A DNA stretch of 64,000 bases from an uncultured Erythrobacter sp. Lineage in GTDB: Bacteria > Pseudomonadota > Alphaproteobacteria > Sphingomonadales > Sphingomonadaceae. How positions within the stretch are numbered: position 1 is the stretch's first letter; each line of letters begins with the position of its first letter. The notes beneath the pieces were generated by a model. The model was not told the origin of the DNA, did no database searches, and saw nothing but the letters and a program-made list of their open reading frames with translations. The stretch covers positions 906,861-970,860 of the forward strand of contig CANLZI010000001.1 in assembly GCA_947495555.1 (NCBI GenBank), read 5' to 3'. Of the stretch, positions 7,590-61,582 are shown one piece after another. A program made the position numbers and the translations under genes.

Positions 7590-8069
7590 TTACTCGAATA
7601 CTGAGGTATCAACGCCTGCTTCACCAGGCGTCGCCTTCAGCACCAAAGTGCTACAGATCATATCGTGCAGACCTTGCTTGCGCTCAGTAAAGCCGACCAT
7701 GATATAGCCGATGAACAGGATGATGCCTGACAGGATCTTTGCAAAATAGCGGCCAAAGGCGCGCAAGAAGCTGATCCGGTTGCCATCAACATCCACAACA
7801 ATCAGGCCCAGAGCCATCTTGCCAACAGTGGCCTGCTTGGCCGAGCTTTCCATGAGTGCGAAATACAAAATCCCGCCTACAGTTGTGATGAGGTATGCGA
7901 TTCCGGCCCCTGTGTTAGCAAAGGCATCCCCTGCGGCCGGGTCAAGCGCATCGGCGCCAATCATGCTGACACCAAAAACAGCAAAAATAGCCGTCTGGGC
8001 AATCAAAAGAATGATGCTGTCGATAATATAAGCACCGACCCGTATCCAAAAACCTGCGTAATTTTCCAA
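7590..8069 (-). CDS. RDD family membrane protein
   Basis: A 159-residue protein beginning MENYAGFWIRVGAYIIDSIIL, which holds the RDD-family arginine and aspartate (WIRVGAYIID). Three or four hydrophobic helices follow, with the motif QATVGKMALGLIVVDVDG typical of the family. RDD proteins are small integral membrane proteins, some implicated in ion transport, but the function here is unknown. It converges with the permease gene, leaving only five bases between stops. Confidence 0.85.
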   Translation of the reverse strand: MENYAGFWIRVGAYIIDSIILLIAQTAIFAVFGVSMIGADALDPAAGDAFANTGAGIAYLITTVGGILYFALMESSAKQATVGKMALGLIVVDVDGNRISFLRAFGRYFAKILSGIILFIGYIMVGFTERKQGLHDMICSTLVLKATPGEAGVDTSVFE

Positions 8070-8154
8070 CAGTCCCTCCCCTAAAAGAAGCGCTGATAAT
8101 CACGCCTATCCGGCGGAACCGCAAGGGAAAAATCCGATACTTCAACAGCTGACA

Positions 8155-8188
8155 ACAAAAAAGGGGCCCGCAACCGCGAGCCCCTTTC
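8155..8188 (-). terminator. Terminator of the TonB-dependent receptor gene
   Basis: Inverted repeat AAAGGGGC / GCCCCTTT (arms 8160-8167 and 8180-8187) with a 12-base loop. On the minus strand it is followed by a run of T residues. It sits just past the receptor stop at 8210 and separates it from the downstream RDD gene. Confidence 0.75.
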
Positions 8189-8209
8189 ATGAATTTTGGA
8201 TGCTTCGAA

Positions 8210-10822
8210 TTAGAATTTGAAGCGAACAACGCCGCCGTAAGTCCGTGGTGCGCTGGGGTAACCCGAGACAGTGCCAGATTGAGCAACACCGTCGAACACT
8301 GTCAGAATATACTGATCATTGAACAGGTTACGGGCATATGCGCCCACTTCAACACCGTTGTTCAGTTTCAGTGTGATCGAGGTGTTCACCAGGTTCACTT
8401 CACGCTCGAACAATTGCGTGTTGCCAAGGGCTGCGTTGAATTCTGGCAGGCCGTTGTTGATCTGCGTGTTGCTTTCATGATTGTAATCAACACGCGTGAT
8501 CAACTGCATCCCGCTATCCCACTCATGCGTGTAAGTCGCAGAAGTCGCGATTGCGATTTCAGGGATACCAGCCGGACGAACACCGGTCAGATCACCAATA
8601 ACGCTTCCGGGGAAGTCGTCGAACAGGGGATCAAGATAGGTGGTTGCAAAGGTCAGAACCAAACCGTCCGTCGGAACGATCGTTGCATCGAATTCCAGAC
8701 CTTTAACCGATTGCTGACCAGCGTTTTGCAGGGCGAAGCCGGTGCCTGTAAAGGCAAGGCTTTGGAAGCCTTTGATCGTTTGGTCGAACAGAGCAAGGTT
8801 GAAACCAAAGCCTGGCCATTGTGCTTTCAAGCCAACTTCATAAACCTCAGCATCTTCAGGTCCGGCGAAGCGCGTGCCTGTTCCAAGGTTTGGAATGGCC
8901 AGACCGGCATCCAGGATCGGCGACGATGGAGCCGCAAACGTGGAGTTACCCGGACCTGGCGTGAAATCGGCCGATGTTGGACGACTGTCACGCGACAAAT
9001 TGACCGAGCTTGCTTTGAAGCCGGTCGCATAGCTGGCGTAGACATTGACTTCGTTCGACACCTGATACGCTGCGCGGAACAGATAGGTCAGTTTGTCGTC
9101 ACTGGTCTTGCCATCTTCAACCGCGTTCGGGATCGTCAAGAACGGTGGTTGGAACTGGAAGCCGGACAAAGGCAACAGTGTGTTCACTGCGGGATTGGTT
9201 GCCAATGCCAGAAGCGCATCCTGGTTTGCCTGCGGCAATGCCTGGAACTGATCGCGGGTAGTTACGGTGCCACCGCTGGCCAAGGTGATGAATGCATCAA
9301 CCAGATTGACCTGACCCAATGGGTCTGGGCTCAGCTGGCTTAGGGCAAAGTCCTTGCTATCATCGGTGTAGTTAAAGCCACCAGTGAACACGAGACCATC
9401 GGTCGGTTCGAAATCGACCGTACCGAAGATCGAATAGGACGTGTTTTCCATCCGGAAGGTTTCTTCCGAAAGAAGCGGTGTCCGGAAGATGCTTTCTTGA
9501 GGCAAGCCAAGAGCTGCTTCAACATCGTTGAATACTGAAGGGGCACCGGTCAAAACGTCGACTGGATCACCTCCAGCCAACAATTCAAACACGTCACGAA
9601 TGTTCGCTCCGTTCTGAATTGCACTGTCTTGCGAGATGGTTTCGTCGAAGTAGTAACCACCCAACAGGAAGTTGATCGGGCCGTCAAAGTCTGACGCGAT
9701 CCGGAATTCCTGTGTGAATGTTTTCACTTCCTGATCGCGGGTTTCCGTTGCGAGAGACGCGCTGGAATAATCGATGTCTGACAGGAAGAAGTTCTTCAGT
9801 TCGCGATAGGCCGTGATCGATGTCAGCGAAATCGGTCCGGCTTGATAGTCCATCTGAACAGAGCCGCCATAATTGTCGACTTCGTTGGTTGGGACAAAGT
9901 TCAAGAACGCATCATAGCTGAAGAAATCGGTGCTGATCTGACCGCCGACGGCGTTGATCGCCCCCGTAACTGGGCCAGAAACCAGCGTGCTGACCTGGCA
10001 GCAAACTTCGTCAATACGAGAGTAATCCGCGATTGCACGGATCTTGAAGTCAGGTGTTGGTTCGAACAGCAACTGACCACGAAGTGACCAGCGGTTACGA
10101 TCGTTTTGCTCTTCATCAAGATTGACGATTGTCGCGTAACCATCACGCTGTTGATAGCTGCCATCTACAGAGAAGGCGACCGTATCGGACAATGGCCCGG
10201 TTACATCACCTTTCAGTACGACAGTGTTGAAGTTGCCATAAACGGCTTCAACCGCGCCGCCGAACTGGAATTGAGGTTCACGCGTAACAACCGAAATAAC
10301 ACCGGCTGAAGCGTTCTTACCAAACAGCGTAGATTGTGGTCCGTTCAGAACCTCGATCCGCTGAACATTGGGAAGATCAGACAGGGCCGCAGCTGAGCGC
10401 GACCGGAAAACACCGTCGATAAACACGCCAACAGAAGGTTCGATGCCGAAGTTGTTATCGCCATTACCAAAACCACGAATGATAAAGGTCGAAGCAGACG
10501 ATGTTTGAAGCTGGCTAACGCGCAGCGATGGGGTCACCGTTTGCAGGTCAAGAACGTCGCGGATTTGGGCATTTTCCAGCGTTTCGCCGCTGGTAACCGA
10601 TACCGAGATCGGTGTTTCTTGCAAAGTTTGCTCACGCTTGGTGGCGGTAACAATGATGGTGCTGTCAAAGCCACCATCATCAAAGCTGGTTTCTGCTGCA
10701 TCATCGGTATCGTCAGCATCTTGCGCCAGGGCGGCGCCCGGAATTGCCAACGCAACTGCTGCAGCCCCGGTCAATAGGGTGAATCGGGACATACCGGCAG
10801 AGCCGGAAAAAATAGAACGCAT
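8210..10822 (-). CDS. TonB-dependent outer-membrane receptor
   Basis: An 870-residue receptor. The chosen ATG (10820-10822) gives MRSIFSGSAG and is preceded by GAGGAG; in-frame codons further upstream lack a site. A signal peptide ends near GAALAQDADD. The TonB-box region is STIIVTATKREQ, followed by a plug domain (ETPISVSV, DVLDLQTVTPSL, RGFGNGDNNFG, VEVLNGP-like RIEVLNGPQSTLFGKNASAG). The rest is a long beta-barrel with the C-terminal GVVRFKF ending in Phe. This resembles the sphingomonad receptors for plant or organic compounds more than siderophore types, but the ligand is unknown. The next gene has no obvious transport role. Confidence 0.93.
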   Translation of the reverse strand: MRSIFSGSAGMSRFTLLTGAAAVALAIPGAALAQDADDTDDAAETSFDDGGFDSTIIVTATKREQTLQETPISVSVTSGETLENAQIRDVLDLQTVTPSLRVSQLQTSSASTFIIRGFGNGDNNFGIEPSVGVFIDGVFRSRSAAALSDLPNVQRIEVLNGPQSTLFGKNASAGVISVVTREPQFQFGGAVEAVYGNFNTVVLKGDVTGPLSDTVAFSVDGSYQQRDGYATIVNLDEEQNDRNRWSLRGQLLFEPTPDFKIRAIADYSRIDEVCCQVSTLVSGPVTGAINAVGGQISTDFFSYDAFLNFVPTNEVDNYGGSVQMDYQAGPISLTSITAYRELKNFFLSDIDYSSASLATETRDQEVKTFTQEFRIASDFDGPINFLLGGYYFDETISQDSAIQNGANIRDVFELLAGGDPVDVLTGAPSVFNDVEAALGLPQESIFRTPLLSEETFRMENTSYSIFGTVDFEPTDGLVFTGGFNYTDDSKDFALSQLSPDPLGQVNLVDAFITLASGGTVTTRDQFQALPQANQDALLALATNPAVNTLLPLSGFQFQPPFLTIPNAVEDGKTSDDKLTYLFRAAYQVSNEVNVYASYATGFKASSVNLSRDSRPTSADFTPGPGNSTFAAPSSPILDAGLAIPNLGTGTRFAGPEDAEVYEVGLKAQWPGFGFNLALFDQTIKGFQSLAFTGTGFALQNAGQQSVKGLEFDATIVPTDGLVLTFATTYLDPLFDDFPGSVIGDLTGVRPAGIPEIAIATSATYTHEWDSGMQLITRVDYNHESNTQINNGLPEFNAALGNTQLFEREVNLVNTSITLKLNNGVEVGAYARNLFNDQYILTVFDGVAQSGTVSGYPSAPRTYGGVVRFKF

Positions 10823-11072
10823 GTGAACTCCTCTCACGGTTTCACGACCCGGACTGGCATCCCCAAATGCTTCTATGTCCGATCGATTGCCAAGGACGTT
10901 AGCCGTTGGGAGTCTTGCAAACAAGTTTCATTGATCACGATTATTGTCTCGCAAGCCACTATTGTTGCTTCAGAGTCACACCTTCACCACTTGCCGTTAC
11001 GGCCCGCTTCAGCTAGGCGACGCGCGATTGTGCGCCGCAACATGGCGCTTTCTCATTCTCCTAAGGCCCAAT

Positions 11073-12905
11073 ATGTCAAATTCACTTCGCAACATCGCGA
11101 TCATCGCGCACGTTGACCACGGCAAAACTACGCTGGTCGACCAACTTTTCCGCCAATCTGGCACCTATCGCGAAAACCAGCGCATTGAAGAACGTGCGAT
11201 GGATTCCAACGATCTGGAAAAAGAGCGCGGCATCACGATTCTGGCCAAATGCACCTCCGTAGAGTGGGAGCATGACGGCGAGACGACCCGTATCAACATC
11301 GTTGATACACCGGGCCACGCCGACTTTGGCGCCGAGGTTGAACGCATCTTGTCGATGGTCGACGGCGTTATCCTGCTGGTAGACAGTGCCGAAGGCGCCA
11401 TGCCGCAAACCAAATTCGTAACTGGCAAAGCATTGGCGCTGGGCCTTCGACCCATTGTAGTCGTCAACAAGATTGACCGCCCTGATGGCCGCCCGCAAGA
11501 AGTGCTGGACGAAGTTTTCGACCTGTTCGTTAGCCTGGACGCAACTGACGAGCAGTTGGACTTCCCTGTCCTGTATGCCTCGGGCCGCGACGGATATTCC
11601 AGCGACGATCAAGAAGCGCGCGAAGGCACGCTCGATCCATTGTTCGAAAAAATCGTCGAGCATGTCCCCTCGCCCGGTTTGGATGCCTCTGGCCCATTCA
11701 GCTTCTTGGCCACCCTGTTGGATCGTGACAATTTCATGGGCCGCGTTCTTACTGGACGTGTTCAATCAGGCACAATCAACGTCAACGATCCAATCCACGC
11801 CATCGATATGGACGGCAATGTGGTGGAAACCGGCCGTGCCACCAAACTGATGAGCTTTGACGGGTTGGACCGCGTACCGGTTGAAACCGCATCTGCGGGC
11901 GACATCATCGCGCTGGCAGGTCTGGAGAAGGCAACCGTTGCCAACACCATCGCAGATACGTCCGTCACAACGCCAATTGAAGCACAACCGATTGATCCGC
12001 CCACACTAGCGATGCGCTTTGCTGTGAACGACAGTCCCTTGGCTGGCCGCGAAGGCAGCAAAGTCACCAGCCGGATGATCCGCGATCGCCTGTATCGCGA
12101 AGCCGAAACCAATGTCGCCATTCGCATCACCGAAAGCGAAGACAAGGACAGCTTCGAAGTGGCTGGCCGCGGCGAATTGCAATTGGGCGTGTTGATCGAA
12201 ACCATGCGCCGCGAAGGCTTTGAGCTGGGTATTTCTCGCCCGAAAGTGCTGTTCCGCGAAGAAGACGGCAAGCGCATGGAGCCGTATGAAACTGTCGTGA
12301 TCGACGTGGATGACGAGCACTCAGGCACTGTTGTCGAGAAGATGCAGCGCCGAAAGGCTGACCTGACCGAAATGCGCCCATCTGGCCTCGGCAAGACCCG
12401 CATCACCTTCTCTGCCCCGTCACGCGGGCTGATCGGGTATCACGGCGAATTCCTGTCCGACACGCGCGGCACTGGTATCATGAACCGCCTGTTCGAAAAA
12501 TACGGTCCCTACAAAGGCCCGATCGAAGGCCGTATCAACGGCGTGTTGATTTCCAACGGCGATGGCGAATCCAACGCCTATGCGTTGAACATGCTGGAAG
12601 AGCGCGGCGAATTGTTCGTTGGCTCTTCGATGAAGCTGTATGAAGGCATGATCATTGGCGAGAATTCCAAGCCGGACGATCTGGAAGTCAATCCGATGAA
12701 GGCCAAACAGCTGACCAACATCCGTTCTTCAGGCAAAGACGATTCCATCCGTTTGACCCCGCCACGCCGCATGAGCCTGGAGCAGTCGATCGCCTATATC
12801 GATGATGATGAAATGGTCGAAGTGACGCCGGAATCGATCCGTCTTCGCAAGGCATTGCTGTGCCCGCATGAGCGCAAGAAGGCCAAGCGCAAAAAAGAGG
12901 GCTAA
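11073..12905 (+). CDS. typA: Ribosome-associated GTPase TypA/BipA
   Basis: A 610-residue translational GTPase starting [22 protein letters not shown]1 is AHVDHGKT, the switch I region is RGITI, G3 is DTPGHADFG and G4 is NKIDRPD. EF-G-like domains follow, then the BipA-specific C-terminal domain ending in a Lys-rich tail ([12 protein letters not shown]). It acts on the ribosome under stress and at low temperature and in 50S assembly. The in-frame ATG at 10944 was rejected because the added 43 residues are not conserved-looking and precede the G1 motif unnaturally. AAGG lies 8-10 bases before 11073. Confidence 0.95.
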
Positions 12906-47748: not shown

Positions 47749-49899
47749 TCACCCACGCCGCCAATTGTGATATTTCTCTACATATTCGAGAAGTTTTTCC
47801 GGCTTGTTGGCCTTCTTCCATTCGCCCGCGGCAAATTTGTTTGCCTCCGCCATGGTTGGGTAGGGATGGATCGTTTCCAGGATCTTGTTCAGCCCCAGAC
47901 CATGCTTCATCGCGAGCGTGTATTCCGCCAATAGCTCGCCGGCATTTGCTCCGACAATAGTAGCGCCCAAAATCTTGTCCTTACCCGGAGGCGTGAGCAC
48001 TTTGACAAAACCCTTTGTCTCGCTTTCGGTGATGGCGCGATCCAGATCATCCAGGCCATAGGTGGTTACTTCGTATTCCACGCCCTGCTCTTCCGCCTCA
48101 AGTTCGTTCAGGCCGACGCGGGCGATTTCTGGATCAGTGAAGGTGACCCACGGGATAACACGGTAATCCACCTTGAACTTCTTGAATTGGCCGAACAGGG
48201 CGTTGACGCTGGCAAACCATGCTTGATGCGATGCGGTGTGGGTGAATTGATAAGGTCCCGCCACATCGCCAGCGGCGAAGATATTCGGGAACACCGTCGC
48301 CAAATAGTCATCCGTTACCACGGTGCGGTTGGTGTCGATGCCCAGCTCTTCCAAACCGTACCCGCTGAGGCGCGCCTTGCGACCCACCGCCATAATCAAT
48401 GCGTCATAACCGATCGCTGTTTCGCTTCCATCATGCTCGACAATCAGCTGTTTTTCGCCATCGGCCACTTTAACGCGCAGGGCGTTATGGCTGGTCAGCA
48501 CACGCACGCCAGAGGCCATTTGCGATTGTTTAGCCAAGGCAGAGACATCTTCGTCTTCGCGCAGCAACAGACGATCATCGCGTTCAATCTGCGTAACCTG
48601 CGCACCCAATCGGGCAAAGGCCTGCGACAATTCGCAGCCGATCGGGCCGCCGCCCAGAACAGCGATGCGCTTGGGCATCTCGTCCATTTGGACAAATGCG
48701 TCCCACATTGTGTCGCTGGTGAGATAGCCGCTGTGCTCAAGCCCTTCCAATGGCGGAACGAAGGGCTCTGCGCCCGCTGCGATGACGATGGAGCGGGTCG
48801 TCAGTTTGATGGTCTCGCCGTCGTTCTTGGCGATCTCGACCGTCCAAGGGTCAATGATTTTGGCATAGCCCTGCACCACATCCACACCCAGATCACTATA
48901 GCGTTCCACGCTGTCCTTTGGTTCAATCTCGGCAATGATGGCGTGCACCCGCTGAAAGATCGCCTTGAAGCTGAATTTTGCCTCGGCTTGGTCGAGCCCG
49001 TATTTGTCAGCATGACGCATCTGCTGAGCGACCTTGGCGCTCTTGATCAAGGCCTTGGACGGAACGCAGCCGTAATTCAGACAGTCGCCGCCCATCTTGG
49101 AGGCCTCAATCAAGGTCACCTTCGCCTTGACCGTGGCGCCGATCAAGGATGACACGAGGCCGGCTGCACCAGCACCAATGACAACCATATTGCGGTCATA
49201 TTTGGCCGGACGGGTGAAGCCTGCATAAGCGCGGCGGCTCTTGATTTTGGCCAAGACCCATTTGGCCACCCAGGGCACCAATCCCAAAGCGGCAAAAGAT
49301 GCCAGCAAGGCAGGCGAAGCAATGTCGCCCACGTCCTGAATGGCGGCGATTTGTGTTCCGGCGTTCACAAATACAATCGTTGCCAGCAACATCCCGACTT
49401 GGCTGACCCAATAATAGGTCCATGTTTTGATCGAGGTCAGCCCCATCACAAGGTTGACGACAAAGAACGGAAACGCGGGCACAAGCCTAAGCGTGAAAAG
49501 GTAAAACCCGCCTTCTTTCTCAATGCCTTGATTGATGGGCTTGAGACGATCTCCAAATTTGCTCTGGACCCAATCGCGGAACAGAAAACGTGATCCCAGA
49601 AAGGCGAATGTCGCACCAATGGCCGAGGCGAAGGAAACCACAATTGTGCCCGTGACCAAGCCGAACAATGCACCCGCCACCACCGTCATAATGGCCGCAC
49701 CCGGAATTGATGCCGCTGCCATCAACACATAGGCGACAAAGAAAATGCCGATCACCAGCAGAGGAGATTGCTGATAGATCGCATCGATCTCAGCCTGCCT
49801 CGCTTTGAAGTTCTCCAGCGTAAGCTGGCTGCCCAGATCGAAGTAGAAAAAGGCTCCTACAATCACGGCCAGAACAGCGAGGATAAGCAGTTTCTTCAC
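47749..49899 (-). CDS. Fusion of a VTT (TVP38/DedA-like) membrane domain with a class I flavoprotein disulfide reductase
   Basis: A 716-residue protein. Residues 1-225 hold five or six helices with the SNARE-associated/VTT pattern (AAASIPGAAIMTVVAGALFG, LRLVPAFPFFVVNLVMG). Residues about 235-716 are a pyridine-nucleotide-disulfide oxidoreductase with FAD GAGAAGL, redox pair CLNYGCVPSK, NAD site LGGGPIGCELSQAF, FAGDVAGPYQF and a C-terminal HPYPTMAE dimer motif. The redox pair matches mercuric/dihydrolipoamide reductases, but the N-terminal HMA or lipoyl parts are absent. The membrane anchor may bring reduction of a membrane or quinone-linked thiol. Confidence 0.88.
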   Translation of the reverse strand: MKKLLILAVLAVIVGAFFYFDLGSQLTLENFKARQAEIDAIYQQSPLLVIGIFFVAYVLMAAASIPGAAIMTVVAGALFGLVTGTIVVSFASAIGATFAFLGSRFLFRDWVQSKFGDRLKPINQGIEKEGGFYLFTLRLVPAFPFFVVNLVMGLTSIKTWTYYWVSQVGMLLATIVFVNAGTQIAAIQDVGDIASPALLASFAALGLVPWVAKWVLAKIKSRRAYAGFTRPAKYDRNMVVIGAGAAGLVSSLIGATVKAKVTLIEASKMGGDCLNYGCVPSKALIKSAKVAQQMRHADKYGLDQAEAKFSFKAIFQRVHAIIAEIEPKDSVERYSDLGVDVVQGYAKIIDPWTVEIAKNDGETIKLTTRSIVIAAGAEPFVPPLEGLEHSGYLTSDTMWDAFVQMDEMPKRIAVLGGGPIGCELSQAFARLGAQVTQIERDDRLLLREDEDVSALAKQSQMASGVRVLTSHNALRVKVADGEKQLIVEHDGSETAIGYDALIMAVGRKARLSGYGLEELGIDTNRTVVTDDYLATVFPNIFAAGDVAGPYQFTHTASHQAWFASVNALFGQFKKFKVDYRVIPWVTFTDPEIARVGLNELEAEEQGVEYEVTTYGLDDLDRAITESETKGFVKVLTPPGKDKILGATIVGANAGELLAEYTLAMKHGLGLNKILETIHPYPTMAEANKFAAGEWKKANKPEKLLEYVEKYHNWRRG

Positions 49900-52816: not shown

Positions 52817-53551
52817 CTATTTCTTCTTCCGACCGAAGAATCCGGTGAAGTAGAAGCGGCTTTTCTTCCCCTGCTTGGCCTTCTCGCGACTGACTGCAGC
52901 CTGAGTGGCCCTTTCAACGCGGGCCGCCGTTTCAACCGCGCCGCCTGGCTGTCCCAGGCGAGGCAGTACGGACGAAGCGGTGCTGTCGCGTAAGCCTTGA
53001 CCGGTTGTGCGACCTGGCCCAGCAGGATTTGCCGCCGTCTTGGACGTTTTATTTTCAGCCCGACGCTGGGTTTTCTTTGTACCTGCCTGAGCCCGTTTGG
53101 CTGCCGGAGCTTGCTTTTTCGCTCCTTGCCGTGGCGGAGCAGCCGCCCGCCCAGGGCGAGGTGCGGAATTGGGGACAGCCAACAAATTCATCGTCGTCGT
53201 CGCCGCCGCCGCATGTGCGGTGAAAGTGCCGGCATTGCGATTGCCGGGCTTGCTCTTTGTGCGTTTGGGGGAAACTGTTTTGCCCGCCACCCGGGACGGG
53301 CCCGCCTTGGAGCTTTTGCCCGCGGCCTTTCGGCTCGATTTTTTGGCACCATTGGCTCTGCTCCTTGAAGCAGAAGCTTTCTTCTTCTTACCCGAGCGCT
53401 TCTTCTTGCTGCTCTGGCGGCTACCTTGCGAGCCACCGGGAGCCGCTTCGGCTGCGCCGAGAAAGATATTGACCGATGTAGGGGCGGGTACAAACCCGCC
53501 AATGGCAAGCGCCATTGCCGCAGTGCTGGCTGTGAGTGTTTTCAGGCTCAC
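52817..53551 (-). CDS. Exported Lys/Arg/Ala-rich (histone H1-like) protein, last gene of the MACPF operon
   Basis: A 244-residue protein with a signal peptide (about 1-36, ending AAEAAPGG) and a long low-complexity body of Lys, Arg, Ala, Ser and Pro, for example SSKKKRSGKKKKASASRSR, like histone H1 tails. A short aromatic tail, RFYFTGFFGRKKK, closes it. The GTG start overlaps the stop of the LamG gene (GTGA). No family recognised. A polyanion-binding job (LPS, teichoic-like polymer, DNA) outside the cytoplasm is inference. Confidence 0.72.
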   Translation of the reverse strand: MSLKTLTASTAAMALAIGGFVPAPTSVNIFLGAAEAAPGGSQGSRQSSKKKRSGKKKKASASRSRANGAKKSSRKAAGKSSKAGPSRVAGKTVSPKRTKSKPGNRNAGTFTAHAAAATTTMNLLAVPNSAPRPGRAAAPPRQGAKKQAPAAKRAQAGTKKTQRRAENKTSKTAANPAGPGRTTGQGLRDSTASSVLPRLGQPGGAVETAARVERATQAAVSREKAKQGKKSRFYFTGFFGRKKK

Positions 53552-54252
53552 GGCAATGTCTCCATTGAATCGACCACCAGCAATTCGTCCTCGCGAAAAT
53601 CGCTCTGCGCCACCAGATATTCGGCCGCAGGGTGATCGTCACTGGCAGGATCGAGCACTTCGCGCATACGGAAATCAACAATCTCGTCTTGGGTCAAAGG
53701 CTGGCTCCAGAAACGCAATTGTGCGATCGCGCCATCCAGCGAAGCGGCTTCTTCTGACTCTAGACCACCGACAAACAGGCCGGCAGATGGCAACGCCAAG
53801 GGCATCAGATCGCTTGTCCCGATCAGTGCACCATCAAGATACACCTCGACCCCGTCTTCCATGATGTTTAGCGCGACATGGTGTAAATTGCCGCCTGACA
53901 GATCGCCGATAAAGACATCTTCGTCATTGGCATTGGCAAACACCAAACCGTCACGCTCGCGCAGGATGGAAACCTGATACAAAATGCCGTCAGGTCCGAT
54001 ATTGATAATCACCGGAGGATCATAACCAGGATCGCCCGACCAATTGGCCGCAACCCAGAATTCGATCGCACCGCCGTTTGAAAGATCAAGCTTGGGCGAC
54101 GGGTCAAAGGCGATCGGTCCACTCTCGCTGACCTCCAACACATCGGGTGTGTAGCCTTGCGCCGATGCCGCTGCGGGCATCACCACCACACCCAACGCCA
54201 TAATCGCGCCTACAAAACTGCGTTTCATCCTAGACATCCTCATTCCAATCAC
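53548..54252 (-). CDS. Exported LamG/concanavalin A-like lectin protein of the MACPF operon
   Basis: A 234-residue protein with a signal peptide ending PAAASAQG. One LamG-type domain follows: AIEFWVAANW, LHHVALNIMEDGVEVYLDGALIG, GLFVGGLESEE and IAQLRFWSQPLTQDEI. Such jelly-roll domains bind glycans or other surface ligands. The start ATG overlaps the MACPF stop by four bases and its stop overlaps the basic protein gene, so it is made with both. Confidence 0.88.
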   Translation of the reverse strand: MIGMRMSRMKRSFVGAIMALGVVVMPAAASAQGYTPDVLEVSESGPIAFDPSPKLDLSNGGAIEFWVAANWSGDPGYDPPVIINIGPDGILYQVSILRERDGLVFANANDEDVFIGDLSGGNLHHVALNIMEDGVEVYLDGALIGTSDLMPLALPSAGLFVGGLESEEAASLDGAIAQLRFWSQPLTQDEIVDFRMREVLDPASDDHPAAEYLVAQSDFREDELLVVDSMETLP

Positions 54253-56918
54253 TTGATCCGCTTAACCCTGAGATACAGCCTCAGCTCTGGTCGGCCATTG
54301 GGGCCAATTACCCATGTTGTGGTGTGCGACTTGTTCGGCGCCAGACCAGATCCCTGCATCGGCGTGGAGTTCAGCGACCGTTTGTCGGTTCTAATCTTGC
54401 CTCGCGCTGCGCCTTCATACTGCCAAGCGAAATCAATGCTCAGCTTGTATTGCTTCATCTGGGCACGCGTGCCGCGCAGCACCAGCAGACCAGGTGTGTT
54501 GTCAGAGATCGCATAGTCATAAGTCGATTTGTTGGTCTTCTTCCATTTGCAAGCCACCCGCAGCTTTTTCTGCTGAGCAAAGCCCGGCCGGTGCCCCGTG
54601 CCCGAGATCGTAACATTGCCCGAAGCTGCATTGGTCGTGCCTGGGCCCGGCTTTGTGCAGTTCATTTGCCGCACATAGACATGCCATTCCTCAATCGGTT
54701 CAACCTTTTCTGGCTCAGGATCAGGCTCAACCGGTGCCGGGGTCCAGGAGACTTTGGAGATCAGGCGTTCATTGCTGAGCGGTCTGGTTTGGCCTGCTAG
54801 ATAGCCATTGATGGCCTGCGCCAATTCCGCCCGAACCCGCGTATAAACATCGGGTTGATCGGGGAAGTTGATCGGATTGAGCAATTCATCAAGAGGCCTG
54901 AGATCGAGCAGGATAGGCGCAACGCGGTCCCCGCGCGAATAACCGCCCGAATCCCACGATCCATTTCCGCCCACTGCGACAAATCGCCCACCTTCATTGC
55001 CGATTTCGCCGGCGGTGCGGGTACCGACACTGCTCATCCCTTCATTGAACCCGCCGATGGAACTGCCCACCACCTGCACCTCGGCTTCGAACCGGTTGCC
55101 CTCGGTTTCGGTCAAGGCTTGCGAGAACACTTCGGTTGAGATGTCACGCGTCATCTTGGCATTGGCGCCATAGGTGACGGCATAGGCGTAATGCGTGCCG
55201 AAGCGGTCGATCAATTGCCGATAACTGCCTTCTTCCTGCGCATCGCCAATGGCGGTGAGGAAATCGGACGACAATTTGGTGTCGGCATGCTCGGCAATGA
55301 TCGCATAGCTTTTGGCACGAGAGTAACCCACCACCTGCGCCAGCGTGTTGTTCTGCCGCATCGTCGCCATGGAAGATTTGGTGCTGGAATATCCCACGCT
55401 AAAGCCAGTGTCGGCGACCTGGCCAGTACCGGGTATAAAGGCCAAAACCGAATTTACAGCGCCCGAAACGCTGTACACCGCATTGACACCAAAGCTGTTG
55501 CTGTTGGCGTTTTGCAGCTCTCGCTCGCTCGACACACTCGTCCGGCGATAGACATTGCCCTGCAGTGTATCGTTGCGCAGTGTGAAGCCCAACGGAACCG
55601 CATACTTTTCCTGGATGCGATATTCGTCGCGACCGCGGCGAGCGAAAACCTCTCCATTGTTATTGTTCATCAGCAGAAACGGATCCTGCGTCAGAACATT
55701 GTAGCCTTTCAGATTGGCGGCGAAATTGTCGGTTTGATACTGGATGACAAACACGTCATCGATCGACAAATCGCTCTCCACCAATGGCTCTGGCCGCAGA
55801 AATTGGCGATTGCCGATCCGCAGGCGTAAATCGCCGCCAGAAGTGTAATCCAGCGTCAGAGTAGAACCGAGATCAGACTTCCCTTCTGCCTGATAAACTT
55901 TCCTGTCTCGCGTGTTTCCAATCAAATCCGCCACGCTTTGGTCATCTGAGGACACAAAGCGGGTGTAGCGAAGGTCATTGACGCCAGACATGACATACAG
56001 CTCATTCTCTCTGTCGCCGGGCGCAATGAACATCGTTTCAGGCGTGGTGTAATTGCCATGTAGCAATCCTGTCAGCGCGGTGCCCTCAACGTCCCATGCG
56101 CTGCCATCATTGCGCGATGTGTCAAAATTCGCTTCCTGGTTTTGGACCCAAACACCATCGATGCGAGTCCAGCATTCCTTGCCATCGTCTCCAGTTGACG
56201 GAGCCGTCTCAGGGCTTGCGACAGGGGCAAATTGGCGATCGGTAATCCGGTCTCGCGGGTTGGCTGCAGGTGGACGGGCTACTGGCAGCTGATCAAAATT
56301 GTCAGGAATCGGGCAACCTCTGAATGTCTCGCCTACCGGACGGACTTCTCCAAAGGCTTCGCCCAGCGAAGCATAAGAGGCTGTCTGTTGCTCCGCTCCG
56401 CCAGCGGCATAGCGCCCATCGTCCGGGGACGGGTCGCGGCCTGATCCTGGCTGAACGAACATAGGCGGACTGCTGGGTGCTTCGTTAGTGCTGCCGCCAA
56501 CCCGGGTAAGAGTATAGCGCACTGGACCAAACAGGCCGGGCACCGATGCCTCTATCCGGTCGGGCGAGACCACTTTCATGGTCACCTTGCCCATCAAGGG
56601 TAGATCATCGCCAACATATTCGTCGTCGGCCGTCTGGTTGATGTTGCGAATGGTGACCATGTCCGGTTGCACTTTGAACACAAAGGCATGGACCCAGCCT
56701 TCAACCGCATATGCCCGCCCGCCCTCGATGCGGATGATCTTGCCAATCGTATTGACTCGCCAGTCGCCATCGATGGCCATCGGCTGGGTCGCTGGCACGG
56801 CATCCTTATTGGGCAGCAAGGCAGGTACATGAGCTTGCGCCGGTGTGACCGGAGCAATCGCAGGCGCTGCAACCATAGTCGCAGCCGCCAGTGCAAGCAG
56901 GGGCCTTGTGATGATCAC
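54249..56918 (-). CDS. Exported MACPF (perforin-like) domain protein
   Basis: An 889-residue protein with a signal peptide (about 1-29, ending TPAQAH). An N-terminal domain (about 47-140) is shared with the upstream gene. After a Pro/Ser-rich linker and a beta-rich region (about 250-400) comes a MACPF domain (about 400-690) with the full signature Y-x6-F-G-T-H-Y at residues 566-577. A Pro/Glu linker and a C-terminal domain (about 750-889) end it. MACPF proteins oligomerise on membranes and form pores; some act as adhesins. It is coupled to genes on both sides. No accessory toxin-secretion system is seen. Confidence 0.9.
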   Translation of the reverse strand: MIITRPLLALAAATMVAAPAIAPVTPAQAHVPALLPNKDAVPATQPMAIDGDWRVNTIGKIIRIEGGRAYAVEGWVHAFVFKVQPDMVTIRNINQTADDEYVGDDLPLMGKVTMKVVSPDRIEASVPGLFGPVRYTLTRVGGSTNEAPSSPPMFVQPGSGRDPSPDDGRYAAGGAEQQTASYASLGEAFGEVRPVGETFRGCPIPDNFDQLPVARPPAANPRDRITDRQFAPVASPETAPSTGDDGKECWTRIDGVWVQNQEANFDTSRNDGSAWDVEGTALTGLLHGNYTTPETMFIAPGDRENELYVMSGVNDLRYTRFVSSDDQSVADLIGNTRDRKVYQAEGKSDLGSTLTLDYTSGGDLRLRIGNRQFLRPEPLVESDLSIDDVFVIQYQTDNFAANLKGYNVLTQDPFLLMNNNNGEVFARRGRDEYRIQEKYAVPLGFTLRNDTLQGNVYRRTSVSSERELQNANSNSFGVNAVYSVSGAVNSVLAFIPGTGQVADTGFSVGYSSTKSSMATMRQNNTLAQVVGYSRAKSYAIIAEHADTKLSSDFLTAIGDAQEEGSYRQLIDRFGTHYAYAVTYGANAKMTRDISTEVFSQALTETEGNRFEAEVQVVGSSIGGFNEGMSSVGTRTAGEIGNEGGRFVAVGGNGSWDSGGYSRGDRVAPILLDLRPLDELLNPINFPDQPDVYTRVRAELAQAINGYLAGQTRPLSNERLISKVSWTPAPVEPDPEPEKVEPIEEWHVYVRQMNCTKPGPGTTNAASGNVTISGTGHRPGFAQQKKLRVACKWKKTNKSTYDYAISDNTPGLLVLRGTRAQMKQYKLSIDFAWQYEGAARGKIRTDKRSLNSTPMQGSGLAPNKSHTTTWVIGPNGRPELRLYLRVKRIK
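55188..55223 (-). other. MACPF signature motif of the perforin-like protein
   Basis: Codons for residues 566-577, YRQLIDRFGTHY. This matches the consensus Y/W-x6-F/Y-G-T-H-F/Y with no deviation and is the main evidence for the family call. Confidence 0.9.
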
Positions 56919-57856
56919 TGAACCCGCTCCATGGTGATGGTGAAGTTCAATGTCGCTTTGCTGCCGGCGACCTGAATGTCATCCCTCAGGCTTTGATTGA
57001 CATCCAGACCAGTGCCAAATGCATTATCCAACAGGTTTGACGTCTTGATGAAACTCGAACGCGGGACCGCAAGGTTTCGATAGGTGCCACGAATTTGCAG
57101 GCCGGAAAATCCGCCAGAACCAGGTGGCACCGTTATTTCGAGCGCACCGGGGCCCCGATTGTAATAGACGTAGCTTTGGCTGCGCTTCCCATTTCTGGTG
57201 CAGAAAACATCAAAATTCCGTTGTTTGGAGACCATCTTCTCTCCGTCGGGATCGGTCATCGCAATCAGCACCTGTCCGCGAAAGCGTTTGCGGGTCAGTT
57301 GCGAGCCTTCGCACTCACCCGCGCTCACATGCAGGCGATAGACATGGTCTTGCTCGACTGGTTCGGGCGGCGGTGGAGCTCCGACCGGGACGTCATCACC
57401 GGGGCCTGGACCAGGTTGGGGTGCTGGCCCTCCGGCATTACTGGTTGGAACCAAGACATATTTGGCTTCACCAAAGGCCCCTTGGACCACACCTTGCAAA
57501 GCTCCGTTGGGCTGGCGGTAAAACTTTACCTTACCCATCATTGGCAGATCGTCTGCCTCAAATTCGTCGGGGCCGGTTTGGCGAAAATTCTGCAAGGTAA
57601 CCATGCCGCGCTTGACCCGGAAGATCAGCGCATGAGTCCATGGGTCAACAACATAAGCGCGTCCGCGATCAATTGTGATACGCTTGTTGATTGTCGAGAC
57701 CATATAGGTGCCATCCGCATCCGTCGCAGCAGTAGGTTCAACACTGTCCGCGGTCGGCAACATCGCAGCCATCTGCGCCTGCGCAGGACTTGCCAGTGCG
57801 ATAGGGCTAGCAACCAACATGGCTGCCAAAATCGATTTCTTGAAAGTGTTTCGCAT
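56915..57856 (-). CDS. Exported paralogue of the MACPF protein ends, without MACPF domain; first gene of the operon
   Basis: A 313-residue protein from the ATG giving MRNTFKKSIL with AAGGGG upstream; the in-frame codons to 57898 lack a site. The signal peptide ends near PAQAQM. Residues about 45-140 align with the MACPF protein N-domain (shared GRAY.V..W.HA..F, MVT..N..QT..DE, DDLP.MGKV). A Pro/Gly linker is followed by a Cys-containing C-terminal domain (EQDHVYRLHV) that seems to match the C-terminal domain starting EEWHVYVRQ in the MACPF protein. Function unknown; a partner or inhibitor of pore assembly is possible. Confidence 0.82.
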   Translation of the reverse strand: MRNTFKKSILAAMLVASPIALASPAQAQMAAMLPTADSVEPTAATDADGTYMVSTINKRITIDRGRAYVVDPWTHALIFRVKRGMVTLQNFRQTGPDEFEADDLPMMGKVKFYRQPNGALQGVVQGAFGEAKYVLVPTSNAGGPAPQPGPGPGDDVPVGAPPPPEPVEQDHVYRLHVSAGECEGSQLTRKRFRGQVLIAMTDPDGEKMVSKQRNFDVFCTRNGKRSQSYVYYNRGPGALEITVPPGSGGFSGLQIRGTYRNLAVPRSSFIKTSNLLDNAFGTGLDVNQSLRDDIQVAGSKATLNFTITMERVQ

Positions 57857-58183
57857 AGCAATTCCCCTTGTCCGGTGCGGCCCAATGCGCCTGAGCACCG
57901 AAGCCGTTTAGAAAATTCGTTAGGCCGAACCGGTGTGAATGAGGTTCCGCTGCCCGATGATGTTGCAAGAGATAACCGAGCCATTGTTGGCTGCCGATGG
58001 GGTGGATCCCCCATCGCGCTAGGCACCGCGCAGGCATGGGCAAAATGGGCTCCAGCAAAGCCGTCACGCGAGCTTTCACACCCGCATGATGCCCAATTTA
58101 CCAAAAGCGCGGATTTGCAAGCGGGCCAGAAACCGATTTAAGACAGTGTCTAAGCAGCTATTTTCAGGGATAATGGCACAATA
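57857..58183. promoter_or_regulatory. Divergent intergenic region between the MACPF operon and the response regulator/kinase pair
   Basis: 327 bases with no convincing gene; small frames here are shadows of the flanks. It must hold the promoters of both operons. It contains a perfect inverted repeat CGATGGGG-TGGATC-CCCCATCG at 57995-58016, roughly central, without a T-run. It may be an operator or hairpin. No clear -35/-10 pair was recognised. Confidence 0.6.
57995..58016. repeat. Perfect 8-bp inverted repeat in the divergent promoter region
   Basis: Arms CGATGGGG (57995-58002) and CCCCATCG (58009-58016) with a 6-base loop. Location between two divergent operons suggests a regulator-binding site, but a structural hairpin is as likely. 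Confidence 0.55.
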
Positions 58184-58816
58184 ATGGCTTCTACCCGCGC
58201 AATCATCGCCGACGATCATGCCATCGTGCGCAATTCGCTTGCGGCCATTCTGGATGAACTTGGCGATGTAGAGGTGGTGGCGCAGGCCGAAAACGGGCTT
58301 GAGACCATTGCGCTGGTCAAACAACATTTGCCGGACCTTCTGTTGCTGGATGCCGCCATGCCGCTGGCCCGCGGAGTAGAGGTTTATGGCGAGGCGCGGC
58401 GATGGTCGCCAGACACACGCATAATAGTGGTGACTGGCTTTACCGGCACATCCATGTTGGCCGATTGGCTGTCAGCCGGTGTCGATGGGCTATTTTTGAA
58501 AAGCGCCGATCCCGAAGAAATGAAAACCGGCTTTTCGCAAGTGATTGCGGGCGGCAAATTTGTCTCCCAAGCGGTGGCGGACAAGCTGGCGGCTGAACCC
58601 GAACGAGAGCCTTTGACCGACCGCGAGCGCGAGGTGCTGGCTCTGTTGGCGGCGGGCCATCAAAACGTGGCCATCGGAGAGAAACTGTTCATCAGCCCAA
58701 AAACGGTTGAAAAACACCGCGCCAGCCTGATGGCTAAATTGGGCGTCAATTCGGTTTCTGCGCTACTGACCTATGCCTTGCGAGAGGGATTGCTGGACGA
58801 ACATCGCCAGCTATGA
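58184..58816 (+). CDS. NarL/LuxR-family response regulator
   Basis: A 210-residue regulator. Acidic pair in AIIADDHAIVR, phospho-acceptor Asp56 (LLLLDAAMP), Thr in VVTGF and Lys in LFLKSAD form an intact receiver. The LuxR HTH is at about 145-205 (LTDREREVLALLAAGHQNVAIGEKLFISPKTVEKHRASLMAKL). Its stop overlaps the sensor kinase start (ATGA). It diverges from the MACPF operon and is the natural candidate for its activator. Confidence 0.93.
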   Translation: MASTRAIIADDHAIVRNSLAAILDELGDVEVVAQAENGLETIALVKQHLPDLLLLDAAMPLARGVEVYGEARRWSPDTRIIVVTGFTGTSMLADWLSAGVDGLFLKSADPEEMKTGFSQVIAGGKFVSQAVADKLAAEPEREPLTDREREVLALLAAGHQNVAIGEKLFISPKTVEKHRASLMAKLGVNSVSALLTYALREGLLDEHRQL

Positions 58817-60942
58817 TTTTTGCAGCCAAACCAGCGCGCGCAAACCGATGGGGTATCTGCCCCATGTTGATCGATCCGGCGCTGGCCTACCCCCTTGCCA
58901 TGATCAAGCGAACTGCCCTTCAATTCCGGGCCGCATTGTGGCGGTTATTTGCTGGCATGCTCGCATTGTTTGCAGCATGTGGCGCACCCTTGGCGGCGCA
59001 AAGCGATGGACAAAGCGATGGGTTTAGCGATCTGGCAGCCGTCTCGCTTCCGGTCGGCAATAATCATTCTCAGCCTTTTGCAGATCTTCGTTATCTCATC
59101 ATCGACATGCCGCAACTCGACGCGCTGCTTGATCCTCAGGCGGCTTTGGACAGGCGCGATGAATTTGAAGCTCTGCGCAGCCCGTGGGTCGATTTTGGGG
59201 ACCGGGATGGCGCCATTTGGTTGCTGATGCGGGTGCGCAATGACAGCGGTCGACCAGGCGAATGGATGGTCGACATCCAGCGCCCCTTCGTCGATCAATT
59301 GCTGGTCCAGAAACTGGCTGCAGACCAGCCGCCGCAAACCCTGTTGAATGTCGACAGCACCACCCATTTCTCAGAGCGTCCGGTGGTCAGCCAATATCTG
59401 GTTGCTCCGCTATGGATGGAGGCAGGCGAGAGCGCCGACATTTTGATCGGGATGCGATCCTCCACCGGCAGCTGGATGCCAGTCACTTTTGCCACGCCGG
59501 AACGCATGCGCACGGCCCATATGCAAGAGGCGCGAACCAATTGGTTGATCAATGGCGCGATGCTTTCCTTGATCATCATCGCCCTGATTATGGGCCGCCT
59601 GGTCGGTTGGCCGCTGGTTATCGCCTTTGCCTGCTATGTCGGTCTGAGCGCGCTGTTTGTGGCCAATAACGAAGGCTATCTTCACCGCTTTGTCTGGCCC
59701 GGATCGATGGGCGCCTATGAACCCGCCAATCTGCTGCTGCTATGCGGCATGATGATTGCGGTGCTGCAATTCGCCAGATTGTTCGCCGGCCTGCGGACGA
59801 ACCGACCCACAGCCAACCGCGCGGTCACGGCCTTGCAACTGGTCTTGGGCTTTGCCGCCGTGGCCAGCGCGATCTGGTGGCAATCCGATGCCGTGCGCTG
59901 GAGCGTGTTCGTGCTCGTTCCATTCGTTGCCCTTGCCTATTTCACCACCGCCATTCTGGCTTGGAGGGATAAGGTGCTGGGCGCCCTTCCCTTCCTGCTC
60001 GGTTCGCTCGCTATTCTGTTTACCGTTGCGACCATCGCCGCAGTCTTGTTGTCACCCGGCAAATTTCCGATGACCGTCGCGCTGGACTATTTCCACGCAA
60101 CCGTCCTGTTCGAAAGTCTGGCGTTTCTGGTCGCCATATTGGTCAGAATGCTGGCCATCCAGAAAGAGCTGAACCGGTCGCTGCAGGCAGAAGTTTCCAG
60201 CTCCAACGAGAAGCTGAGGCTGGCCGAAAACCTTCGGGAAAGCCGCGACCGATATGATCAGGCGCGCAACCGCGCCGATGGCCTGCGCGCCAAATTGGCC
60301 TCTACCTCGCATGATTTGCAGCAACCCTTGATATCCTTGCGTCAAGAACTGGCAGAGATATCCGCCCGCGACCCAGAGGCCGCCGCCAATTTGCAAGCCG
60401 CCTTGACCTATATCGAAGGTGTAACCGAGGCTGGTCTGAGCCACAGCAAGCCTGAATCGGCCGATCATTTGATGGCGGGCGAACAACCCGACAGCGGCGT
60501 TGAGGACTTCCCCATCTCGGCTGTTCTGGCCAATTGCGATGCCATGTTCCGTGCAGAGGCCGAGAGCAAAGGCACGCAAATGACGGTTAGGCCATCGCAA
60601 TCCATCGTGCGCACCGAACCCATTGAGCTGATGCGCGCAGTGAGCAATCTGATCTCCAACGCGCTCAAACATGGGCATGCCAGCAAGCTGTTGATCGGCT
60701 CGCAAAACCGCCGCGACCATATTGTGTTGCGGGTGATCGATAATGGCGTTGGCATGAGCGAGGATCAGCTTGCCGAAGCGACCCGTGCCTATGCCAAGGG
60801 TGATGGCAGCGATGGTCATGGACTTGGTCTGCATCTGGTCAACCGCTTTGGCGGGCGGCCGGGCCACCGGCTGTCGATGCAATCATCCCCCGACAAAGGC
60901 ACCTGCATCACAATCCGCATTCCCAAAGGCGATAGCGGTTGA
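58813..60942 (+). CDS. Sensor histidine kinase with 7TMR-DISM periplasmic and membrane module
   Basis: A 709-residue kinase. An N-terminal signal or first helix (about 40-62), a periplasmic 7TMR-DISMED2-like beta domain (about 75-230), seven helices (about 245-450), a coiled stretch, then HisKA with His500 (STSHDLQQP) and HATPase with NLISNALKHG, VIDNGVGM and GHGLGLHLV. DISM-type extracellular domains are carbohydrate-binding-like folds, so a glycan or small ligand may be sensed. The start is coupled to the regulator; internal ATGs at 58864 and 58900 are alternatives. Confidence 0.9.
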   Translation: MIFAAKPARANRWGICPMLIDPALAYPLAMIKRTALQFRAALWRLFAGMLALFAACGAPLAAQSDGQSDGFSDLAAVSLPVGNNHSQPFADLRYLIIDMPQLDALLDPQAALDRRDEFEALRSPWVDFGDRDGAIWLLMRVRNDSGRPGEWMVDIQRPFVDQLLVQKLAADQPPQTLLNVDSTTHFSERPVVSQYLVAPLWMEAGESADILIGMRSSTGSWMPVTFATPERMRTAHMQEARTNWLINGAMLSLIIIALIMGRLVGWPLVIAFACYVGLSALFVANNEGYLHRFVWPGSMGAYEPANLLLLCGMMIAVLQFARLFAGLRTNRPTANRAVTALQLVLGFAAVASAIWWQSDAVRWSVFVLVPFVALAYFTTAILAWRDKVLGALPFLLGSLAILFTVATIAAVLLSPGKFPMTVALDYFHATVLFESLAFLVAILVRMLAIQKELNRSLQAEVSSSNEKLRLAENLRESRDRYDQARNRADGLRAKLASTSHDLQQPLISLRQELAEISARDPEAAANLQAALTYIEGVTEAGLSHSKPESADHLMAGEQPDSGVEDFPISAVLANCDAMFRAEAESKGTQMTVRPSQSIVRTEPIELMRAVSNLISNALKHGHASKLLIGSQNRRDHIVLRVIDNGVGMSEDQLAEATRAYAKGDGSDGHGLGLHLVNRFGGRPGHRLSMQSSPDKGTCITIRIPKGDSG

Positions 60943-60948
60943 TCGCAT

Positions 60949-60964
60949 TGGGGTTTCAACCCCA
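60949..60964 (+). terminator. Short hairpin after the sensor kinase gene
   Basis: TGGGGTT-TC-AACCCCA, a perfect inverted repeat 7 bases past the kinase stop. No T-run, so it may be a weak terminator or a processing signal. Confidence 0.4.
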
Positions 60965-61012
60965 TGGCAATTGCACCTGGTGGACTCCATTCCTGTATGA
61001 AAGGAGCCACTC

Positions 61013-61582
61013 ATGCGAACCTCCATCACTTGTCCGAAACGGATTATCAATTTGGTATGCATCGCTGCATTGGCGATGGCTTGCGCCCCTGCCACGCATG
61101 TAGCTGAAACCTCCACCACGCTGGGCAATGCGGTTGATTGCAAGGCTGATGAAGAGCTAGTCTTCGCTGGAGACGTCGAGGATGATTTTGGACTGAGCAT
61201 AACGGTATGCCTAATGCCGGGCACCGACCCGCACGAGCCGACAGTGACCATCATCTATTCCGGCGAAGGCGGCACCCGTTCGGTTTCGTGCAAACCCTCG
61301 GAATGTTCGGGCTTCATCGATTTCACCCATTATGTGCGACCGCGCTTCACCATCCTCGCTCTTACCTGGCGTGACGAAAACGGCGAGCAGCGCCTGGTCG
61401 AAACATTCGATGCCCAAGCGCTGGACAGCGATCCGATCCACTCCGTCAGCCATTCATGGGCCACGCCACCGATGCAGGGCCAGACTGACGGGAACCAGGA
61501 CGAGCCACCGCTAAGCTACCAAGTGGTACCGCAAACACAGCCACTCTCCATGCTGAGGCTGGACGGAATTCTCGCGCGCTAG
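61013..61582 (+). CDS. Hypothetical lipoprotein
   Basis: A 189-residue protein with a lipoprotein signal (IAALAMAC, Cys at about 24). The body has several Cys (VDCKADEE, TVCLMPG, VSCKPSECSGF) and beta-rich stretches, and the C-terminus is Gln/Pro-rich. AAAGGAG lies about 7 bases before the ATG. No family recognised. Its position after the kinase could tie it to the MACPF locus, but the intervening hairpin and its own ribosome-binding site leave that open. Confidence 0.7.
   Translation: MRTSITCPKRIINLVCIAALAMACAPATHVAETSTTLGNAVDCKADEELVFAGDVEDDFGLSITVCLMPGTDPHEPTVTIIYSGEGGTRSVSCKPSECSGFIDFTHYVRPRFTILALTWRDENGEQRLVETFDAQALDSDPIHSVSHSWATPPMQGQTDGNQDEPPLSYQVVPQTQPLSMLRLDGILAR

Follow-up and report, generated by a model that had tools for sequence, protein, structure and literature searches.

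Bacterial MACPF proteins are best studied as toxins of Bacteroidales. The Bacteroidales secreted antimicrobial MACPF proteins (BSAPs) carry an export signal and are lipoproteins of the cell surface, and the C-terminal domain of BSAP-1 drives its receptor binding, as stated in the available part of the source (PMC12853789). BSAP-2 is encoded in a three-gene operon but needs only its MACPF gene, according to the portion at hand of a second report (PMC4999547). A different arrangement is found in the CDCL/short CDCL pairs of Elizabethkingia and other bacteria, in which the operon of a pore protein also encodes a partner that is related to a portion of that protein; this partner, the short CDCL, is without the C-terminal region and itself oligomerises (PMC7527733, available excerpt). 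More generally, bacterial MACPF domains are sporadic in occurrence, with proteobacteria among the holders, in the accessible part of a structure paper (PMC2954219).

Here, we describe a MACPF locus in a stretch of 64,000 nucleotides from an uncultured Erythrobacter sp. (the window), in which a leftward set of four genes (A–D) faces a divergent sensor pair. The features of the locus are given in Table 1. The divergent sensor-regulator pair, a palindromic DNA site (the box) and a lipoprotein gene downstream of the pair were not part of an earlier, sequence-only reading of the window, which had dealt with A–D.

Organization of the locus

The four genes were proposed to form a leftward operon with 4-base overlaps, and this layout is confirmed, with GTGA at every junction (57856-52817). 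The overlaps require that B, C and D start at GTG codons. Since further-in, in-frame ATGs are present in C, and since C starts ~20 bases past the end of B in two other loci (L024 and L069), the overlap between B and C in the window is probable, but not certain. Signal peptides had been reported on all four products, and by eye each indeed has a Sec-type N-terminus; for D, a simple scripted test gave the same result. No lipobox was found in B or C of the window by pattern, or in A or D by eye. Searches of A–D against PADLOC, PHROGs and NCBIfam gave no useful match, and neither A nor D has a credible match in Pfam.

No obvious immunity gene lies near A–D. The neighbours, as judged by eye, are a nitroreductase-like gene, the sensor pair, a lipoprotein gene, a transporter and a receptor-like gene from 63152, and no gene for a resistant form of a target was recognised among them. 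Elsewhere in the window (47749-49899), a DedA/TVP38-like membrane part appears, also by eye, to be fused to a mercuric-reductase-like enzyme.

Table 1. Features of the MACPF locus (window coordinates; residue numbers refer to protein B)
Feature	Position	Strand	Description
Gene D	52817-53551	-	244 aa; exported Lys/Arg-rich low-complexity protein with aromatic-basic C-terminal tail
Gene C	53548-54252	-	234 aa; exported LamG / ConA-like lectin-fold protein
Gene B	54249-56918	-	889 aa; exported MACPF protein
B C-terminal domain	54252-54698	-	residues 741-889; two cysteines; more variable than MACPF core
B MACPF core	54771-55772	-	residues 383-716
MACPF signature Y-x6-F-G-T-H-Y	55188-55223	-	exact; residues 566-577
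B N-terminal domain	56496-56828	-	residues 31-141; common to A, also in caspase and ricin-lectin fusions elsewhere
Gene A	56915-57856	-	313 aa; exported paralogue of B without MACPF core
A C-terminal domain	56918-57352	-	common to B
A N-terminal domain	about 57443-57772	-	common to B
Box ATGGGG-N6-CCCCAT	57997-58014		between regulator and A
LuxR/NarL-type response regulator	58184-58816	+	divergent from A
7TMR-DISM sensor histidine kinase	58813-60942	+	downstream of regulator
Box ATGGGG-N6-CCCCAT	58848-58865		regulator/kinase junction, before probable kinase start
Box with one outer-base mismatch	60948-60965		47 bases upstream of E
Gene E	61013-61582	+	small lipoprotein, lipobox by eye

The MACPF protein B

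B is the product in which an exact MACPF signature had been noticed. With the signature taken as Y-x6-[FY]-G-T-H-[FY], the matching segment is Y-RQLIDR-FGTHY. The Pfam MACPF family (PF01823) matches residues 524-706 (E 1.9e-9, 38.4 bits against a cut-off of 21.5), and it is matched at E <= 0.001 by 21 of 21 cores of the B family. The glycine and histidine of the signature, at core positions 192 and 194, are the same in all 21 sequences, and a glycine motif is also kept in the core alignment. A phmmer search of the PDB with B alone returned only an unrelated match (E 0.66). The profile of the core found MPEG1 (best, E 4.4e-8) and perforin, with a weak match to 2qp2, which we take to be Plu-MACPF. 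An AlphaFold model of the core, calculated from the 21 sequences, is of low confidence (mean pLDDT 57); its best fold matches are perforin-2, perforin and C9 in their pore states (TM-scores of 0.3-0.45), with astrotactin also among the matches and weak matches to 2qp2 and to 3kk7, a B. thetaiotaomicron entry. Structural alignments to perforin-2/MPEG1, perforin-1 and C9 have ~12-18% identity. A full-length AlphaFold model of B from 9 sequences (pLDDT 40) was discarded. A MACPF fold around residues 400-690 is thus supported by the Pfam matches, by the profile matches in the PDB and by the low-confidence model, and we conclude that the core of B is predicted to adopt this fold.

MACPF proteins need not be lytic. 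A crude test of the hairpin regions of B detected an amphipathic β pattern in the second and none in the first. The first hairpin region is only ~20 residues long in five distant relatives, and some of these proteins may therefore not span a membrane. Such short regions would fit a non-lytic surface assembly, in which B would act as an adhesin or coat in oligomeric form, C would bind glycans and D would stick like a glue to LPS or to extracellular DNA, the whole serving attachment or biofilm formation. The presence of astrotactin among the fold matches, the lectin fold of C and the polycationic nature of D are all consistent with this explanation. However, the core keeps the signature glycine and histidine as well as the glycine motif, and its best matches are pore states, albeit for a model of low confidence, so that we regard a non-lytic assembly as unlikely.

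The C-terminal domain of B changes faster than its core. Between the window and L024, identity is 56% in the C-terminal domain, 62% in the middle domain and 79% in the core, and the linker also changes faster than the core. A fast-changing C-terminal domain would fit a receptor domain; the argument is weak, because the linkers and the middle domain outpace the core as well. The nearest named relative of B is 94% identical and lies on an uncultured Erythrobacter contig, and the next is 76% identical, in a Pontixanthobacter record. At least one carrier is represented by an isolate record, Pontixanthobacter sp. CEM42. No match to B was found in a plasmid collection. The lipobox pattern is absent from the 20 other B proteins, though the frames of at least L136, L138 and L139 were too long or truncated, which weakens the test for them. 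GspD gave no match above the cut-off in the genome of the window, where two secretin-like matches fell below it, and exit by a type II route is thus possible.

Gene A and the domain it shares with B

Gene A had been described as a MACPF-less paralogue of B, and sequence and profile comparisons agree: A consists of the end domains of B minus the MACPF part. The N-terminal domains are 41% identical over 140 columns (E 4e-29). Between the C-terminal domains, BLAST gave no significant match, whereas a comparison of profiles relates them with a probability of 97 (E 1.8e-10); the same comparison yielded no match in three control pairings of other domains. A is present at 7 of 20 MACPF loci, once as a split gene. 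The split copy comprises two ORFs (L132:8523-9497) and is either broken or the result of a sequencing error.

Pfam names nothing in the N-terminal domain of A or of B. At eight further loci (L032, L033, L034, L036, L037, L072, L075 and L076), the same domain is found at the C-terminus of caspase (Peptidase_C14) proteins; by eye, some of these loci are near purC and others near glyS, and an M16 peptidase (Pfam) is also present in L032. Three more loci (L038:6721-7752, L071:1058-2032 and L027:6054-7856) encode fusions of the domain, with a ricin-B lectin at two of them and with a basic Gly/Ala-rich region at the other, and a sensor pair of the same kind as in the window adjoins these fusions.

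The exported partners C and D

The assignment of C as a LamG lectin is upheld by its match to Laminin_G_3 (E 2.9e-12, 47.4 bits against a Pfam cut-off of 27.6). D was previously termed H1-like, a likeness for which we found support in its composition only: its mature part contains 52 Lys/Arg and 6 Asp/Glu residues, and no Pfam histone family matched at E <= 1, a search that low-complexity sequence can escape. The D proteins are diverse in sequence. Several have an aromatic-basic C-terminal tail, and four of those listed have an RKVTFR-like segment within their sequence. In a distant subgroup, two related lipoprotein-like genes come straight after D (L035:3410-4384 and L139:13071-13979, by eye), and perhaps encode a further partner there.

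Being exported and basic is an uncommon combination at these loci. As a control, we took greedy ORFs of 130 aa or longer from 28 fetched loci, 310 in all, of which 9 passed: 6 D genes, 1 D-like gene beside A in L071 and 2 others.

Co-occurrence of B, C and D

The genomes searched were overlapping draws of 298 and 397 genomes of the family, 289 of the class, 114 of the genus and 32 of a second genus. They yielded 20 distinct MACPF loci of the family of B, the window, L023 and L131 included, all of which were annotated with custom HMMs. Because they are on the same contig, L022 and L131 are treated as a single locus, and a MACPF fragment in G371 was left out, being below the cut-off. MACPF genes are rare in Alphaproteobacteria (4 of 289 class genomes, including that of the window) and were matched in 14 of 114 genomes of the same genus. 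Two MACPF proteins from a different alphaproteobacterial family (L082 and L083) have none of the partners nearby.

The C family is present at 19/20 MACPF loci, and a D-type exported polycation likewise at 19/20. The D count comprises 17 genes picked by eye from a scripted list of basic ORFs near C, all of which passed the signal-sequence test, plus those of L136 and L139, taken from ORF lists. C and D of L024 and L069, which lie beneath longer overlapping ORFs, and the D-type genes of L025, L026, L035 and L070 were found via tblastn, reading frames and HMMs. The exception is L138, a contig of 3957 bases, on which neither C nor D occurs in the 1.4 kb past B. At L134, two B genes are in tandem (7999-12503).

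Gene order is less constant. D is convergent with C, on the opposite strand, in L025, L026, L134, L135 and L136, and follows C on the same strand elsewhere; in L070, the sensor pair sits between B and C. As the strand of D differs among loci, the link between B, C and D is not that of one frozen operon. The identity of the core to that of B in the window is as low as 22%, and the values for distant members (22-38%) argue against a very recent common ancestor of the loci.

Thus, B, C and D recur together beyond chance. The sequence-only reading had treated all four genes as one set and asked for conserved linkage and order. Linkage stands for B, C and D, whereas A is too infrequent to belong to a fixed set and more than one gene order exists. 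That the genes are unrelated neighbours sharing strand and export signals by coincidence is accordingly very improbable. Tight overlaps alone can arise by chance, and A is not fixed, but the joint presence of the other three in more than one arrangement and the small number of exported-and-basic ORFs in the control both speak against coincidence.

The divergent sensor pair and its neighbours

The kinase has Pfam matches to 7TM, extracellular DISMED2 and HATPase domains, with no HisKA match listed, and its true start is perhaps near 58900, after the box. Relatives of regulator and kinase are present at 13/20 MACPF loci, at 12 of them with a kinase of close form. They also accompany the A/B N-terminal domain where no MACPF protein is present, at 12 of 13 fetched loci of this kind, and occur at none of 8 fetched caspase-fusion loci, these 13 and 8 being a subset of the loci of either kind. 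This distribution indicates that the sensor pair is associated with the MACPF system and its relatives rather than with the N-terminal domain as such.

Homologues of the lipoprotein gene E were found at L131, L132, L133, L145, L025, L136, L026 and L134. A second exported family, X, occurs at 8/20 MACPF loci, with one weak match; it has no credible Pfam match and was not found in the genome of the window. Members of X are at L022:8862-9779, L025:9243-10058 and L026:7059-7913, and in the latter two loci X is divergent from B with boxes between them.

A recurring palindrome

The box was found by a motif search of 12 selected regulator upstream regions, where it scored 240 at width 16, compared to 118-129 in six base-shuffled sets (starting points of 150 versus 60). 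The exact 18-base box occurs three times in the whole genome, twice in the window. Its inner 16 bases have five sites in the genome, three of them in the window, versus one for a backward-read control. With up to 2 mismatches allowed, the window contains 4 sites versus a chance mean of 4.8, and therefore only exact or near-exact boxes count.

Across 28 selected genomes, exact boxes are present in 16, and the backward-read control is absent from all 28. All 12 genomes with a close sensor pair have exact boxes, in each case at the locus. The exact box is absent from seven of seven genomes of the same genus without a match to B, and also from G001, G003 and G354, the last of which has a more distant kinase. 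Of five MACPF genomes without the sensor pair, two are boxless and three have 1 or 2 boxes away from the locus; at the MACPF loci without the pair, no box was found in the 6 scanned of the 7. A genome picked as a negative (G002) has four boxes, three of them beside an E-kinase-regulator-X cluster at which MACPF, C and A are absent. Based on this co-occurrence, we infer that the regulator binds the box.

One further exact box in the genome of the window (C1:2107169-2107186; L150:1500-1517, L160) is located 68 bases before a gene for a 144-aa lipoprotein-like protein, which adjoins a GroEL-like gene (by eye). The arrangement is kept in a close relative (L161), and the lipoprotein-like gene is a possible further target of the regulator.

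An envelope-stress or self-protection system is an alternative explanation, with which the place of this box, before a small lipoprotein gene that neighbours a GroEL-like one, would be consistent. In such a response, the kinase would sense envelope damage and the exported proteins would bind and seal or remodel the cell's own surface, with E and X belonging to the same response. The signal sequences on all four products, the adjoining sensor pair and the recurrence of the same sensor type at 12 of 13 fetched loci without MACPF would agree with it. However, the patchy spread of the MACPF gene within the genus (see above) is more in keeping with an accessory trait than with a core response, and we consider this explanation unlikely, slightly more so than the non-lytic assembly.

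Proposed function

We tentatively favour, at slightly less than an even chance, a sensor-induced, Sec-exported multi-protein MACPF system that is probably pore-forming and antagonistic. A cue at the cell surface would lead the kinase to activate the regulator, which would bind the palindromes and raise expression of A–D, of E and of its own genes. Exported B may then oligomerise via its MACPF core and insert β-hairpins into a target membrane, with its C-terminal domain selecting the target, by analogy with BSAP-1. C would bind surface glycans, as its fold suggests, and D, to judge by its composition, could bridge anionic surfaces through its polycationic part and tail, so that C and D would keep B in place, on the envelope or on the target. 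A, with the end domains and no pore core, might compete with or cap B and thereby tune assembly. The most likely use would be antagonism of neighbouring cells, either bacterial rivals or protist grazers.

We counted in favour of this sensor-induced system the MACPF domain and fold, the near-constant association of B, C and D, the distribution of the sensor pair, the co-occurrence of the box and the fast-changing C-terminal domain of B. Counted against it were the low confidence of the core model, the lack of an amphipathic β pattern in the first hairpin region of B, the shortness of this region in some relatives, the absence of a lipobox, of a GspD match above the cut-off and of an obvious immunity gene, the 7/20 MACPF loci without a sensor pair and the one locus without C and D.

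A broader proposal is possible, though somewhat doubtful: the locus may be one version of a modular envelope weapon of sphingomonad-type bacteria. One type of sensor and regulator and one palindrome would control a family of exported effectors, many of them sharing a domain, and the MACPF version would need three proteins for pore formation, the MACPF protein itself together with the LamG lectin and the polycation with its membrane-active tail.

Comparison with known systems

The sequence-only reading knew of no described system of this composition, and we found none in the literature covered, from which most subscription journals are absent. Within the same coverage, no account was found of MACPF proteins with Erythrobacter, with LamG or with a two-component system, nor any relevant report linking a 7TMR-DISM/LuxR-type pair to a MACPF operon. 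What the locus adds is an alphaproteobacterial MACPF protein whose two exported partners are conserved and which, at most loci, is joined by a sensor pair and a recurring DNA site. If our reading holds, the inducer of a bacterial MACPF protein, the partners that it needs and its exit without lipidation become directly testable.

The closest parallels each share part of this design. B resembles the BSAPs, as far as these are described in the available parts of the sources, in being exported and in having a variable C-terminal domain attached to a MACPF core of the bacterial kind. It differs from them in that B of the window is without a lipobox, that C and D are conserved partners and that a sensor pair lies alongside. 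A is reminiscent of the short CDCL as a partner related to part of the pore protein but, in contrast to the short CDCL as presented in the accessible excerpt, retains the end domains and is without the MACPF core. BT_3439 of Bacteroides thetaiotaomicron and Plu-MACPF of Photorhabdus likewise combine a bacterial MACPF fold with extra domains; their accessory domains are different, and a LamG or polycation partner is not described for them in the available part of the source (PMC2954219). Perforin-2/MPEG1, perforin-1 and C9 provide the best profile or fold matches of the core of B, but they are eukaryotic immune proteins. The sensor pair has the same domain make-up as known pairs of 7TMR-DISM kinase and LuxR/NarL regulator, whereas here it is divergent from a MACPF operon and accompanied by a recurring palindrome. 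We conclude that this is a real, conserved multi-gene MACPF system with a linked sensor pair and box, built around a core of a known kind and new, as far as we have searched, in its composition and control.
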